Of a stretch of 64,000 nucleotides of DNA, positions 17,780 to 24,481 are shown one piece after another (the first letter of the stretch is position 1; each line of letters opens with the position of its first letter). The notes beneath the pieces were generated by a model, which worked only from the letters and a program-made list of their open reading frames with translations, did not search any database and was not told the origin of the DNA. This DNA is from Candidatus Avelusimicrobium pullicaecorum (GTDB lineage Bacteria > Elusimicrobiota > Elusimicrobia > Elusimicrobiales > Elusimicrobiaceae): contig CALUQD010000005.1 of assembly GCA_944322825.1 (NCBI GenBank), forward strand, positions 1-64,000, read 5' to 3'. Both the position numbers and the translations under genes were made by a program.

Positions 17780-17808
17780 ATTATAACTTCCTCCGGGGTA
17801 CGTGTCAA
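17780..17808 (-). promoter_or_regulatory. Consensus sigma-70 promoter for hydCBA
   Basis: TTGACA (17803-17808) and TATAAT (17780-17785) read on the minus strand with an exact 17-bp spacer. Both hexamers match consensus at all positions. A leader of about 100 nt precedes hydC. Confidence 0.85.
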
Positions 17809-17834: not shown

Positions 17835-17866
17835 CAAAAAAGGCGCGGAAGCATTTTTCCGCGCCC
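17835..17866 (-). terminator. Intrinsic terminator
   Basis: GGCGCGGAA pairs with TTCCGCGCC, followed by six T's on the minus strand. It lies 5'-ward of the hydrogenase promoter and ends within about 15 bp of the stop at 17879? On the minus strand it follows that gene directly. Confidence 0.8.
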
Positions 17867-17878
17867 TATGGATTTGCA

Positions 17879-18982
17879 TCAGCGTTTCCACCCGTACAGC
17901 TGGCGGTAATAGAAATAAGTCCGTACCTTTTCCAAAACGGCGGTCCCCCATTGGGAGTCGTATTCCCAGTTGAGGGGGCAAAAAATCATTCCGTCAAAGC
18001 CGGACTCAAACAACCGGCGGCCCACCCTGTCTTTTTCGGTAAAAGCGGTCAACGCCAAAATCGTCCCGTTGTAGCCGGCGTCGCGCAGCATTCCGGTCAA
18101 ATAAAAACCGCCGCCGCCCGGTACAATTAAATCGGTTATAATCAAATCGGGTTTCTCGGCTGCCCGGAGGACATCCTGCAATAATTTTTCCGTATCGGTA
18201 TAACAACGCACTTTCCAACCGGCCGGCACGCCGCCCATTTGCTGCATCCAAAGAAAGTTATTCAGCAGATCCGTTTCGTCATTTAATATAGCCACCCGCA
18301 GCTGTTTGGGAAGCGAATTATTCCACCGGGCGGATTTTTTCCCGCGCGGGGCGTGCAAAAAGAATTCGCTTTTCTTATATACCCGGCCCGGGCTGGCATA
18401 CATTGGGCGGGAAATCGCCCCACACAGCAGCGGGTCCACCACTTGGGCGGCATAGGCTACGTATTCGCACGCCGCCTGGTAGGCAGGATCCTTGGAAAAG
18501 ATAAACGGTTTCAGCCGTTCCAACTGGGAATGCATTTCGACAATTTTCCGGCTCCAGACGCTTTTTTCCGCACTGGAAAGGGTATGCCGTTCCAGCGGTT
18601 TGCTTTGGTAATACAGAAAAACATCCATTTCTTTGCGAAAGGATTCAAACTGCTTCATCGTTTGGTGGTACCTGTCCAACACCTCTGCCACCTGTTCCGC
18701 ACGCGCGCCTTCCAACAGGCTGATGCCGCGCGGGCGCACGGACTTAAACAAATGCCGCTCGATATCGTTTAAATACGGAGCTGCAACCGGTTTCCCCGAT
18801 GGCAGGATTTTACCCTGCACGATGCGGGCTTTATTCAACACGTCGATTCGTATCCTCTGGCGCAATAATTGGCTGGCGTTTTTTTCAAACGCCTCGCTGG
18901 TTATTTTTTTGATCACATTTCCTTGTGCCGCACACGGAAGCGCCAACCCCAGTGCCAAAGCACATACTGCCACGACTTTCAT
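17879..18982 (-). CDS. Exported protein with C-terminal receiver-like domain (paralogue 2)
   Basis: The 367-residue protein begins with a signal peptide (MKVVAVCALALGLALPCAAQ). A helical region of about 200 residues follows. The last 140 residues have the layout of a response-regulator receiver: acidic pair in VAILNDE (Asp235/Glu236), phospho-acceptor Asp284 in LIITDLIVPGGGG, Thr312 in LALTAF, and GFDGMIFCP where the family's conserved Lys is replaced by Cys. The tail VRTYFYYRQLYGWKR is shared with the paralogue at 19088. A receiver domain outside the cytoplasm would be unusual because ATP and histidine kinases face inward; the domain may be a non-phosphorylated binding module. Signal peptide and fold are inferred from sequence pattern. 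Confidence 0.7.
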   Translation of the reverse strand: MKVVAVCALALGLALPCAAQGNVIKKITSEAFEKNASQLLRQRIRIDVLNKARIVQGKILPSGKPVAAPYLNDIERHLFKSVRPRGISLLEGARAEQVAEVLDRYHQTMKQFESFRKEMDVFLYYQSKPLERHTLSSAEKSVWSRKIVEMHSQLERLKPFIFSKDPAYQAACEYVAYAAQVVDPLLCGAISRPMYASPGRVYKKSEFFLHAPRGKKSARWNNSLPKQLRVAILNDETDLLNNFLWMQQMGGVPAGWKVRCYTDTEKLLQDVLRAAEKPDLIITDLIVPGGGGFYLTGMLRDAGYNGTILALTAFTEKDRVGRRLFESGFDGMIFCPLNWEYDSQWGTAVLEKVRTYFYYRQLYGWKR

Positions 18983-19037
18983 TTTTTCTCCTTGCTGCGG
19001 GCTTCCCCGCTGATATTATTTCCTTAAAAACCCAAAG

Positions 19038-19066
19038 AAAGTGGGCGGCCACACCGCCCACTTTTT
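19038..19066 (-). terminator. Intrinsic terminator
   Basis: AAAGTGGGCGG pairs with CCGCCCACTTT. It lies 22 bp after the minus-strand gene ending at 19088. Confidence 0.75.
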
Positions 19067-19087
19067 AATTCATCAACAACGGTTTGG

Positions 19088-20257
19088 CTATCTGTTCCAG
19101 TGATGCAAATCCCGATAATAAAAATAGTTTTGTAAGCGCTTCATAATCAGCAGCTGCCAATGGTCGCTCATTTCGAAACCAAGGCCCTGCGGAATCATTC
19201 CGTCAAAACCGATATCGAACAATTTGCGGCCGATTTCATCGTCTTCCTGGAAAGCGGATAAGGCAATAATAACGCCTTTAAAACCCCGTTCGCGCAGTTT
19301 CCCCGTCAAATAGTTTCCGCCGCCGCCCGGCACGATGATATCCGTCAAAATCACATCAAACGAAGTGGGGTTGGCGGACGCGGCCGCCAGCATTTCTTCG
19401 GTATTGCGGTAGTAGGAAAGTTCCCATCCCGGGAAAAACCGGTTTGCTTCGTGCATTTCTCTCATCCGGCGCAGCACGCTGTATTCGTCGTTTAAGACGG
19501 CCATTTTTAAGCCCTTGGGCAACTTTTCGGCCAGTTTTTTGGCGCGTGCAACAGGAGTAAGCACGCCGTTCCAGATGGCTTCTCTATTCGCTTTGGGTGT
19601 ATACAAAAAGAATTCTTCAAAATCATATTTTCGGTCGGTTCGTTCGAAAGTGTTGGCTAACACCGTACCCCGCAAAAACGGCGAAAGAATTTCCGCGGCA
19701 AACGTAACATATTCGCGGGCCCCCCGATATATGGGATCTTGCGGGGAAATATAAGGTTTTAAACGCTCCAACTGGTTGTGCATATTGGCAATTTTAGCCG
19801 ACCATTCGCCCCGTTCACTGGAGGTTAAAACACGCCGTTCATTCGGTTGGCTTTGATAATACAAAAAAGGATCTGCTTCTTCCTTAAAGGCGCGGAATTT
19901 AGCCATTGCCTCCAGGTATAGGTTCCGTGCCTGCTGGCGCTGTTCCTCGGTTGGTTGTTTCAGCAAGGTCTGTATGGTAAAATCGTTTGGAATATGCAAC
20001 AGGAGGTTGCGTTCCCGCTCAGACAGGCAGTTAGGCGGAACAACGGTTGCATTTGGCAGAATCTTTCCCTGTACAACCCGGGCATTAAGCTGGCGTAAAA
20101 GCTGCGCCCGTGTTTTTTCCGCCACAACGGCAGATGTGGCATTTTTGGAAAAAACATTTTTAATTCCGCTTTTGCTCGTTAATCCTTTTAAAAAATTTTT
20201 CTGGGCATAACACGGAACAGCCAATACCAATGCCAATAACAAAGCCAAGCTTCTCAT
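19088..20257 (-). CDS. Exported protein with C-terminal receiver-like domain (paralogue 1)
   Basis: 389 residues from the ATG at 20257, which has AAGGAG six bases upstream. It has a signal peptide (MRSLALLLALVLAVPCYAQ), a helical middle including PFLYYQSQPNERR and NMHNQLERLKPYI, both conserved in the neighbour at 17879, then a receiver-like domain: MAVLNDE, VILTDIIVPGGGGNYLTG, IIALSAF and GFDGMIPQG. The phospho-acceptor Asp, acidic pair and Ser/Thr are kept while the conserved Lys is lost. The two genes are a tandem duplication with their own terminators. Function unknown. Confidence 0.7.
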   Translation of the reverse strand: MRSLALLLALVLAVPCYAQKNFLKGLTSKSGIKNVFSKNATSAVVAEKTRAQLLRQLNARVVQGKILPNATVVPPNCLSERERNLLLHIPNDFTIQTLLKQPTEEQRQQARNLYLEAMAKFRAFKEEADPFLYYQSQPNERRVLTSSERGEWSAKIANMHNQLERLKPYISPQDPIYRGAREYVTFAAEILSPFLRGTVLANTFERTDRKYDFEEFFLYTPKANREAIWNGVLTPVARAKKLAEKLPKGLKMAVLNDEYSVLRRMREMHEANRFFPGWELSYYRNTEEMLAAASANPTSFDVILTDIIVPGGGGNYLTGKLRERGFKGVIIALSAFQEDDEIGRKLFDIGFDGMIPQGLGFEMSDHWQLLIMKRLQNYFYYRDLHHWNR

Positions 20258-21557: not shown

Positions 21558-22151
21558 ATGAAAAAAATTATTGTACTCGCTTTTGTGTTGACGATGGGCG
21601 CCGCCTGGCCGACCAGCGTCCGCGCAGCGGATGACTGCGGCTGCGCCGCAGGAGATGTAGCCTGCATCAATAGCTGCACGCTGTCTAAAATTACGACTTT
21701 GAGAAAAAATATCCAAAGCCAGAAAGAAGCCGCTCTTGCTAAAATTCAGGCGGCCAAAACCGCGGCCGAAGCCAACACGGACGCCAAGGCCCAGTTAGAA
21801 GAAGCCAAGGCAAACGCCAAAGCCCAAGCTAACGCCGCCAAGGAAGAAGCTAAAGCCAAAGCCGAAGCCGCCAAAGAAGAAGCTAAGGCCGCCAAAGAAG
21901 AGGCTAAAGCCAAAGCTAAGGCCGCCAAAGAAGAGGCTAAAGCCAAAGCCAAGGCCGCTAAAGAACAGGCCAAACAAGAAGCTGCCGCCAAAAAAGCGGC
22001 TTTGAAACAAGCCAAAGAAGACGCCAAGGCCAAAGCCAAAGCAGAAAAAGAAGCCGCCGAAGCCAAAAAAGAAGCGGCCAAGCAAGCCGCTAAAGACGCC
22101 AAAGAAGCCTTAAAAGCGGAAAAAGAAGCCTGGAAAGCCCTTGGCAAATAA
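21558..22151 (+). CDS. Exported Ala/Lys/Glu-rich helical protein
   Basis: The 197-residue protein has a signal peptide (ending VRA|ADDCG), a short Cys-rich head (DDCGCAAGDVACINSC, four Cys), then about 140 residues built almost only from Ala, Lys, Glu and Gln, with a repeating AKEEAKAKA unit. This would form a long single alpha-helix or coiled coil in the periplasm. No family is assigned; such proteins can act as spacers or DNA/peptidoglycan-binding rods, which is speculation. Strong ribosome binding site AAGGAG; own promoter and terminator, so possibly highly expressed. Confidence 0.75.
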   Translation: MKKIIVLAFVLTMGAAWPTSVRAADDCGCAAGDVACINSCTLSKITTLRKNIQSQKEAALAKIQAAKTAAEANTDAKAQLEEAKANAKAQANAAKEEAKAKAEAAKEEAKAAKEEAKAKAKAAKEEAKAKAKAAKEQAKQEAAAKKAALKQAKEDAKAKAKAEKEAAEAKKEAAKQAAKDAKEALKAEKEAWKALGK

Positions 22152-22214: not shown

Positions 22215-22730
22215 TTAATTGGCAATTACCCAGCGCGGGGCCGTATCACTCCCCGCATTGTTCGACAAATCCGCCCCCAACGCCGCGCATAATTGGCGAG
22301 AAAAAGACAAGCTGGAAGCCGAAGGGCTGACCGTTCCGCAAAGGATCTTCCCCCCGCCTACCGAAGTGGATACCCGGAAAACTAAAATATACCATTTCGT
22401 TTTAGAGATAGCCGTTAAGGCCGAATTATCGGCAATTGCATAATTAAAATGCTTACTTTCCGGGATTTCTATATCTAAATCGTCCAGGTTTGTGGCGTAC
22501 GAACCATTGGCCATATAATACACTTCCTGCGCCTCGCGTAAACTTTTCAGTAGGGATAACGGTTCCGCCGCGCGCGCTTTTTCCACCGCCAGTTCGTACT
22601 TGGGAAGCGCCACCGCCGCCAAAATACCAATGATTAAAACGACCACTAACAGCTCTATCAGCGTAAACCCGGCGTTTTTCCCCGCCGGGAGGGTTTTTGA
22701 TAAATTTTGCTCATAGCCAAAATTTATCAA
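22215..22730 (-). CDS. Type IV pilin-like protein, reading frame entered only from a TTG
   Basis: 171 residues. The pilin helix [31 protein letters not shown] and YYMANGSYATNLDDLDIEIP match the pilins at 5354 and 43786. Two Cys lie in the variable C-terminal domain. The ATG that starts its sisters is present (22714-22712), but here the run after it has five A's and then CCC instead of AAAGCC or AAAACCC, so the ATG frame is out by one. The pilin frame is open only from TTG at 22730, giving leader MINFGYEQNLSKTLPAGKNAG. It may be a TTG start, a slippage-controlled gene or a recent mutation. Confidence 0.75.
   Translation of the reverse strand: MINFGYEQNLSKTLPAGKNAGFTLIELLVVVLIIGILAAVALPKYELAVEKARAAEPLSLLKSLREAQEVYYMANGSYATNLDDLDIEIPESKHFNYAIADNSALTAISKTKWYILVFRVSTSVGGGKILCGTVSPSASSLSFSRQLCAALGADLSNNAGSDTAPRWVIAN
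22697..22730. promoter_or_regulatory. 13-bp inverted repeat enclosing a pilin start codon
   Basis: TTGATAAATTTTG (22697-22709) pairs with 22718-22730, and the loop contains the minus-strand ATG. The sequence is shared with 5843-5882 and 44277-44318. Confidence 0.75.
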
Positions 22731-23323: not shown

Positions 23324-24352
23324 CTATCGCGCTGTTATTTCAGGCTGTAAGGCCGCCGCCGGTTCCGCGGGCGCGGCGGATGAATGGACTTCATTCCCCA
23401 TTGAAATCGGGTCCGCCGCAACGTCAGCGGGGGCCGCGCTTCCTGCCGCGGGAGCGACAGCCACAGACGTCACATTTTCTCCCGCCGCGTTGCCTTCATT
23501 GGCCATCAAGGAAGGGGAAATGCCTTCCCCCGCTGGCGCAGGAGTTGCCGCAGACCCAGCGGCGGAGTCCGTTTCAGCCTGCGAAACATCTTCCGCGGGA
23601 GCGATATCCGGCACCGCCGCGGGAAGGCTTTCTTGTTTGCAATCTCCCCACGGGTCCGCAATCCACTGGCCGGTTAAGGTATCGCACGAAAAACCGCGGC
23701 TTTGCGTTCCTCCCTGCGGGCACGGCTGTTCCTGCGGGGCGGGGCGCGGGCCGGATACGGCCGAACAATCGCACGTCAGCGGGATACTGCATTCGCCCCA
23801 GTCGCTCCAGGTATCGGTTGCCGGATCGCAGGTGCGGGTTTGTACACCTTTTTCCTGGCAGCCGCACGGACGAGAATCCGGACCGGGACACAGTGCAATC
23901 TTTTTAGCCGGGGAACATTCCTCCCCGGAATGGAAATCAGCCCGGGCGGTTAAATCGGTGCAAGAAGGGTAATTCTTCCCCAAACGCTGGCACGAGGCGG
24001 CATCCTCGCAGCACAGGCGGCCGTCTTCGTAAGAGGGCATCCGCAAGGTGTATCCATACCCTCCTTTGCGCTGCGCTTCCGCGCCGGTAGGCAACAGCGT
24101 GTAGATAAAATACTTGCTCTCCCCTGTGTTTAATACGCCCGGCAGGGCGGCGAAATCCGTTTCATAACGCTTATCTAATACGCAGCGTTTTTCTTGTTCC
24201 GTGCGAAAAAAAGCCAGCATTTCTTCCGCCTCGGATGTTTTGCGCTGTTCCACTGTTTTGTAAATCCACGGTATAACGGCTGCCGCTAAAATCCCCAACA
24301 CGACTACCGTAACCAATAATTCTGTTAAGGTAAAAGCATTTTTTGTTTTCAT
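23324..24352 (-). CDS. Pilin-like protein with Cys-rich thrombospondin-like tail
   Basis: 342 residues from the ATG at 24352 (GGGAG upstream); the longer frame to 24472 is not supported. The N-terminus MKTKNAFTLTELLVTVVVLGILAAAV is a prepilin signal with Ala-Phe cleavage and Glu5. Residues to about 115 (RTEQEKRCVLDKRYETD..., GYGYTLRMPSYEDGRLCCEDAASCQRLG) form the conserved pilin body. The tail has three W..C / G.Q.R..C units (GVQTRTCDPATDTWSDWGEC, GGTQSRGFSCDTLTGQW) and ends in a low-complexity Ala/Pro/Glu region. It is the intact homologue of the broken gene at 12362-13367. Probably a fibre-tip or adhesive minor pilin; role inferred. Confidence 0.75.
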   Translation of the reverse strand: MKTKNAFTLTELLVTVVVLGILAAAVIPWIYKTVEQRKTSEAEEMLAFFRTEQEKRCVLDKRYETDFAALPGVLNTGESKYFIYTLLPTGAEAQRKGGYGYTLRMPSYEDGRLCCEDAASCQRLGKNYPSCTDLTARADFHSGEECSPAKKIALCPGPDSRPCGCQEKGVQTRTCDPATDTWSDWGECSIPLTCDCSAVSGPRPAPQEQPCPQGGTQSRGFSCDTLTGQWIADPWGDCKQESLPAAVPDIAPAEDVSQAETDSAAGSAATPAPAGEGISPSLMANEGNAAGENVTSVAVAPAAGSAAPADVAADPISMGNEVHSSAAPAEPAAALQPEITAR

Positions 24353-24433
24353 ATTTTTCTCCCGCCGGCCTTTCAACAGTCTCTTTCTTATAGTATACCT
24401 TGCTTTGCCCAAGAAACAAGAAAATTTTTCCAT

Positions 24434-24466
24434 AAAAAAGCCCCGCTTTCTTAGTGAAAGCGGGGC
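24434..24466 (-). terminator. Intrinsic terminator
   Basis: GCCCCGCTTTC pairs with GAAAGCGGGGC, followed by T's on the minus strand. It ends the MntP-like pair. Confidence 0.85.
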
Positions 24467-24481
24467 ACACAAAACAGAACT

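Follow-up and report, generated by a model that had tools for sequence, protein, structure and literature searches.

A genus-specific family of predicted exported pseudo-receiver proteins in the Elusimicrobiaceae

The receiver domain, one of the commonest of all protein domains, is understood to be a phospho-switch that works in the cytoplasm. Here we describe two adjacent genes, A and B, in the window (the whole stretch of 64,000 nucleotides that was analysed), whose predicted products start with a Sec-type signal peptide and end in a receiver fold. By sequence and modelled fold the family to which they belong is a pseudo-receiver family, new by its predicted location and by the active-site residues that it keeps. 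Apparently, a classic intracellular switch domain has been reused outside the cytoplasm. As the most likely role, held with moderate confidence, we propose an exported module that acts independently of phosphorylation, holds a divalent metal and serves interactions at the cell envelope.

Genes A and B are tandem paralogues on the minus strand with 40% identity over 376 aa (Table 1). A Shine-Dalgarno-like AAGGAG precedes the ATG at 20257 (gene A) as well as that at 18982 (gene B). Both proteins share the same order of parts: signal peptide of the Sec type, variable linker, helical domain and C-terminal receiver fold. The upstream neighbour of gene A encodes a transporter-like membrane protein, while NuoE/NuoF/HydA-type hydrogenase genes follow downstream of gene B. 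An operon with the hydrogenase genes was ruled out by the terminator after each gene of the pair and the 12/12 promoter ahead of the hydrogenase genes. The same transporter and hydrogenase genes flank the family genes in 16 of 41 stretches. Given the own terminators and the separate promoter, this conserved map position is therefore no evidence of a joint function with the hydrogenase.

Table 1. Features of the gene pair and its surroundings (positions in the window; ↓ stands before the residue that follows the signal peptide).
Feature	Position	Strand	Description	Basis
Gene A	19088..20257	(-)	389 aa, predicted exported helical + pseudo-receiver protein; upstream member of the pair	ORF, PF00072, AF2 model
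Gene B	17879..18982	(-)	367 aa, predicted exported helical + pseudo-receiver protein	ORF, PF00072
Predicted signal peptide, gene A	20204..20257	(-)	MRSLALLLALVLAVPCYA↓Q	sequence; passes strict rule
Predicted signal peptide, gene B	18926..18982	(-)	MKVVAVCALALGLALPCAA↓Q	sequence; strict rule
Helical domain, gene A	19598..19966	(-)	residues 98-220	model secondary structure, alignments
Helical domain, gene B	18350..18715	(-)	residues 90-211	alignment, profile search
Receiver-fold domain, gene A	19091..19522	(-)	residues 246-389	profile, AF2 model, fold comparison
Receiver-fold domain, gene B	17882..18313	(-)	residues 224-367	PF00072 match 254-336, alignment
Asp257 codon, gene A	19487..19489	(-)	CheY D13 equivalent	66/66 invariant
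Asp306 codon, gene A	19340..19342	(-)	CheY D57 equivalent	66/66 invariant
Ser334 codon, gene A	19256..19258	(-)	CheY T87 equivalent	Ser/Thr in 61/66
Asp235 codon, gene B	18278..18280	(-)	CheY D13 equivalent	alignment
Asp284 codon, gene B	18131..18133	(-)	CheY D57 equivalent	alignment
Intrinsic terminator downstream of gene A	19038..19064	(-)	12-bp stem, 7 G-C	
Intrinsic terminator downstream of gene B	17840..17867	(-)	11-bp stem, 7 G-C	
Sigma-70-like promoter of hydrogenase genes	17780..17808	(-)	12/12 consensus	sequence

Judged by profiles and the predicted structure, the C-terminal part of both proteins is a true receiver homologue. The Pfam receiver family PF00072 was matched by gene B with an E-value of 8.4e-7 and by gene A with 1.1e-5, at scores of 29.6 and 25.9 bits against a gathering cut-off of 30.2; gene B scored 32 bits in the genome search. 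Searched singly, 63 of the 66 family members matched PF00072 (E<=0.01). A family profile from 66 relatives matched the receivers of solved response regulators with E-values down to ~1e-12, and a designed receiver-like protein outscored these solved receivers. The AlphaFold2 model of the gene A product had a mean pLDDT of 85.8; residues 246-389 reached a pLDDT of 90-98 and displayed the strand-helix alternation of receivers. Top Foldseek matches to this model, in a search that covered the receiver part, were overwhelmingly receivers, and comparison with CheY (VIA-align) gave a Z of 15.2 and an rmsd of 2.2 over 126 residues. The C-terminal response-regulator-type domain of the preliminary description is thus borne out by PF00072, the family profile, the AlphaFold2 model and the similarity to CheY; structure prediction and fold search, which could have revealed a non-receiver fold, returned a receiver fold.

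The helical domain is characterized by the conserved motifs Y..M..F..(F)KKE.D.(F)LYYQ and EFFL and had no significant sequence match in Pfam or the PDB. RapH_N was rejected for this domain, its E-value of 0.11 in two of 57 members being at chance level. The FYYR..L..W.R tail, which had been taken for a family trait, does occur family-wide, with a Trp within the last four residues in 55 of the 67 members.

Signal peptides were scored with a strict rule that demands a basic n-region, an uncharged hydrophobic core and an AxA-type site. It replaced an earlier loose rule that 108 of 234 mixed ORFs had passed, many of them false positives. The strict rule was passed by 58 of 67 family members versus none of 77 cytoplasmic controls (NuoE, NuoF, HydA, serine dehydratase and nitroreductase). 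In a second control set of 13 visibly exported proteins, 11-13 passed; some membrane proteins and prepilins also passed, as expected of such a rule. Among the nine family members that failed there are several fragments or ORFs with a wrong start; most others are near misses with one disqualifying residue. No clear second membrane segment was found past residue 60 of the short members, in which the buried third strand usually scores highest.

The products of genes A and B both open with a short, basic and hydrophobic stretch of the A-x-A↓Q type, and we infer from these sequence features that they are Sec-exported. The clear signal peptides seen in the preliminary description are in line with the counts, and neither the rule nor the family conservation contradicted the nature of the N-terminal segment. 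The same holds for its suggestion that an extracytoplasmic receiver would be a new use of the fold, which is supported by the receiver fold, the family-wide signal peptides and the lack of a clear further transmembrane segment. Conversely, the proteins might be cytoplasmic, with an N-terminal stretch that is no working signal peptide, and be ordinary atypical response regulators. Receiver domains are otherwise cytoplasmic, which favours this explanation. However, signal peptides occur across highly divergent members, often with an A-x-A↓Q end, and in none of the controls, such that we consider a cytoplasmic location very improbable.

Active-site residues were counted in 66 aligned family members, with three cytoplasmic receivers, recovered out of seven in the window's genome, as references. 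These cytoplasmic receivers begin at strand 1, carry no signal peptide and keep the conserved Lys. At the first acidic position the family has Asn in 58 of 66 members and an acidic residue in none, turning the VDD/ADD of the cytoplasmic receivers into LND. The second acidic position (CheY D13) is Asp in 66/66, and the phospho-acceptor Asp (CheY D57) is likewise present in 66/66. The position at the end of strand 4 (CheY T87) is Ser or Thr in 61/66 and Ala in the other five, while the Lys after strand 5 is kept in a single member (1/66). The preliminary description had listed an intact acidic pair, of which only the second residue stands, whereas its phospho-acceptor Asp, its Thr/Ser and its missing Lys all agree with the counts. 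What it had read as a GGGG insertion has to be revised: VPGGGG aligns gap-free to LPKMDG/MPKKTG of the cytoplasmic receivers, and on this alignment GGGG is a substitution in the loop between strand 3 and helix 3.

A recognised receiver is by definition a pseudo-receiver when any of the five active-site residues is missing (Bourret et al., 2025, PMC12632262). Since both the Lys and the first acidic residue are lost, the family falls under this definition. The second acidic position contacts the metal directly and the first one via a water; ~80% of bacterial pseudo-receivers lack acidity at the second position and ~35% lack the phospho-acceptor Asp (PMC12632262). Compared with these losses among pseudo-receivers at large, it is unusual to keep exactly the direct metal-ligand positions. 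Phosphorelay chemistry should be absent, so that something else must conserve the pocket. Folding alone could also account for the retention of its residues.

An extracytoplasmic phospho-switch, in which some donor outside the cytoplasm would phosphorylate Asp306, appears improbable to us, and less likely than the C-terminal targeting role discussed below. We know of no ATP pool outside the cytoplasm. The invariant phospho-acceptor Asp and the Ser/Thr kept in 61/66 members agree with phosphorylation, which can survive in part when DD, T or K are changed (PMC12632262). Against it stand the family-wide loss of the Lys and the first acidic residue and the lack of a conserved partner kinase gene at the window locus. 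The periplasmic phosphate donor considered in the preliminary description is poorly supported, with two of the five catalytic positions lost and no conserved kinase gene at the locus.

In the mechanism that we favour, the products of genes A and B would be exported and their signal peptides removed. The exported pseudo-receiver would take no part in a His-Asp phosphorelay; its acidic pocket, formed by the Asp pair, would hold a divalent cation, Mg2+ or Ca2+, both of which are available outside the cytoplasm. The bound cation may stabilise or switch a surface to which the helical domain also contributes and which would bind another protein of the envelope or cell surface, or a ligand, with contacts probably made by the helical domain and the aromatic tail. 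An adaptable exported interaction module of this kind fits the tandem duplication of the genes, their fast divergence and the varied N-terminal parts to which the module is fused.

The family comprises ~100 loci. They lie in 42 of the 62 genomes that were searched in the window's genus (probably Candidatus Avelusimicrobium, Elusimicrobiaceae), with 1-5 matches per genome, frequently in tandem arrays. With the helical-domain profile, a search of 341 genomes of the phylum found nothing outside this genus (42 matching genomes, all within). A pattern scan of the genomes of 84,980 species, with an alignment of a closer family subset as query, returned only Elusimicrobia-type genomes or 'uncultured bacterium' bins, some of them from rumen samples, as well as two weak, generic matches to receivers. 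The genomes of the relatives appear to be metagenome-assembled. A phage origin was rejected, the family having no relative in viral contigs. One genome, G186, holds an array of five family genes (L038:7585-8760), one copy of which contains an internal TAA.

Several other genes recur in the surroundings. A histidine kinase gene whose product has one N-terminal membrane segment is the tail-to-tail neighbour of a family gene in four genomes (L067, L070, L071 and L072); the shared map position may explain this pairing. An extremely Ala/Lys/Glu-rich, predicted exported protein with a Cys-rich start is encoded at 21558-22151 (+), and relatives of it lie beside the transporter gene in 13 of 41 stretches. 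Prepilin-like genes are scattered in large numbers near the family loci, in the window at 22215-22730 and 23324-24472 (-) and in 29/41 stretches overall, seemingly in excess of what a single pilus requires.

Genes A and B each have a 1:1 orthologue in a related genome, G174, in which the gene order is kept. Identity to these orthologues is 65% for gene A and 57.5% for gene B, compared with 97-98% for the flanking hydrogenase proteins and 91% for the transporter. Correspondingly, dN between the two genomes is 0.26 (A) and 0.32 (B) and 0.012-0.047 for the neighbours, at a dN/dS of ~0.2-0.3 for the pair. Genes A and B thus evolve ~20x faster than the adjoining hydrogenase, under purifying selection. 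Within gene A the receiver changed slowest (82% identity) and the linker fastest (33%), while the parts of gene B differ little. A few broken copies, such as the one with the TAA in G186, might suggest that the two genes are decaying leftovers without function. Purifying selection contradicts this, as seen from the dN/dS of ~0.2-0.3, the orthologues in fixed order and the invariant positions, and such decay is extremely unlikely.

In seven genomes the module of helical domain and pseudo-receiver forms the C-terminus of ~1800-2170-aa proteins, and those of these giants that have a complete start carry signal peptides. The four module-bearing giants in the tree group as a single clade nested within the family (100/100), as expected from a single fusion. 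An internal domain of the giants, often present in two copies, was modelled with a clan CD-like fold (pLDDT 93.3); MALT1 ranked top in Foldseek, and Raptor, MALT1, legumain and caspases gave Z values of 10-12. The predicted catalytic His is found in 18 of 20 copies and the predicted catalytic Cys in all 20. Five further genomes encode giants whose chain stops directly behind the caspase-like domain and which lack the module. From the fused giants in seven genomes and the module-free ones in five it follows that the module is a separable cassette.

The giants vary in their composition. Those at L034-L037 and L149-L156 have one or two caspase-like domains, with no confident Pfam assignment in the two that were scanned, and in two genomes the second caspase-like copy has an Arg replacing the catalytic His. 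A more distant caspase-like domain (YGHGAI ... PTCLTG) lies in a 4592-aa open frame of G210 (C9:12743-13729, L157), and further divergent caspase-like copies occur at L158 and L160.

The fusion is a lead that the module may act with exported proteases. By analogy with it, the short proteins could regulate exported caspase-like proteases in trans. The module fused to giants in seven genomes would agree with this, as would the caspase-like fold of the giants (Z 10-12), in which most copies keep the His (18/20) and all keep the Cys (20/20). A short member and a giant were, however, never found in one genome (0/35 versus 12 giant-bearing genomes, Fisher p 3e-5, uncorrected for ancestry), and the window's own genome had no match to the caspase-like domain of the giants. 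Trans-regulation hence seems quite improbable, slightly more so than the phospho-switch.

The main rival to the metal-binding interaction module is that the C-terminal module mainly targets, anchors or caps exported proteins, which we regard as unlikely. Exported caspase-like proteins in Bacteroidota use C-terminal sorting domains, and the module-bearing giants belong to this class of predicted exported proteins. The module sits at the extreme C-terminus of all 67 members, the 1800-2170-aa giants among them, and ends in the conserved aromatic/Arg tail. Giants without the module in five genomes indicate, though, that it is not needed for making and presumably exporting them, and a sorting tag leaves the invariant Asp residues of the pocket unexplained. 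A type IX sorting tail was rejected, as the sorting domain TIGR04183 (Por_Secre_tail) was unmatched in all four genomes searched (0/4). We give marginally less weight still to the idea that the receiver fold is an extracytoplasmic switch, whose invariant Asp pair would bind a divalent cation or receive a covalent modification from a small-molecule donor. This would alter the interaction of the helical domain with an envelope protein or, in the fused relatives, control the caspase-like domain.

Like PF00072/CheY receivers, the family has a (beta-alpha)5 fold, the phospho-acceptor Asp, the second acidic residue, the Ser/Thr and a G.DG before strand 5. Unlike them, it is predicted to be exported, lacks the Lys and usually has Asn as the first acidic residue. 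It also differs from response regulators in that the receiver is C-terminal behind a helical domain, with no DNA-binding or kinase domain and no kinase gene adjoining the window locus. As in bacterial pseudo-receivers, the set of five catalytic residues is incomplete and no phosphorelay is evident; typical ones lose the second acidic residue, whereas this family keeps the direct metal ligands (PMC12632262). Unlike bacterial pseudo-receivers, it is limited to one genus, often in tandem arrays. The exported caspase-like giants of the same genus share the helical and pseudo-receiver module in seven cases; the window proteins have no caspase-like domain and some giants no module. No earlier description of an exported receiver or pseudo-receiver was found in the open-licence literature searched, and the 2025 pseudo-receiver review by Bourret et al. 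mentions neither periplasm nor extracellular location nor signal peptide (PMC12632262).

The mode of action of bacterial pseudo-receivers is an open question (PMC12632262), for which a predicted exported family that retains just the positions of the direct metal ligands offers a natural experiment. For the gut bacteria concerned, genes A and B belong to a genus-specific multigene family of predicted exported proteins, and the fusion to the giants is a lead to its function.
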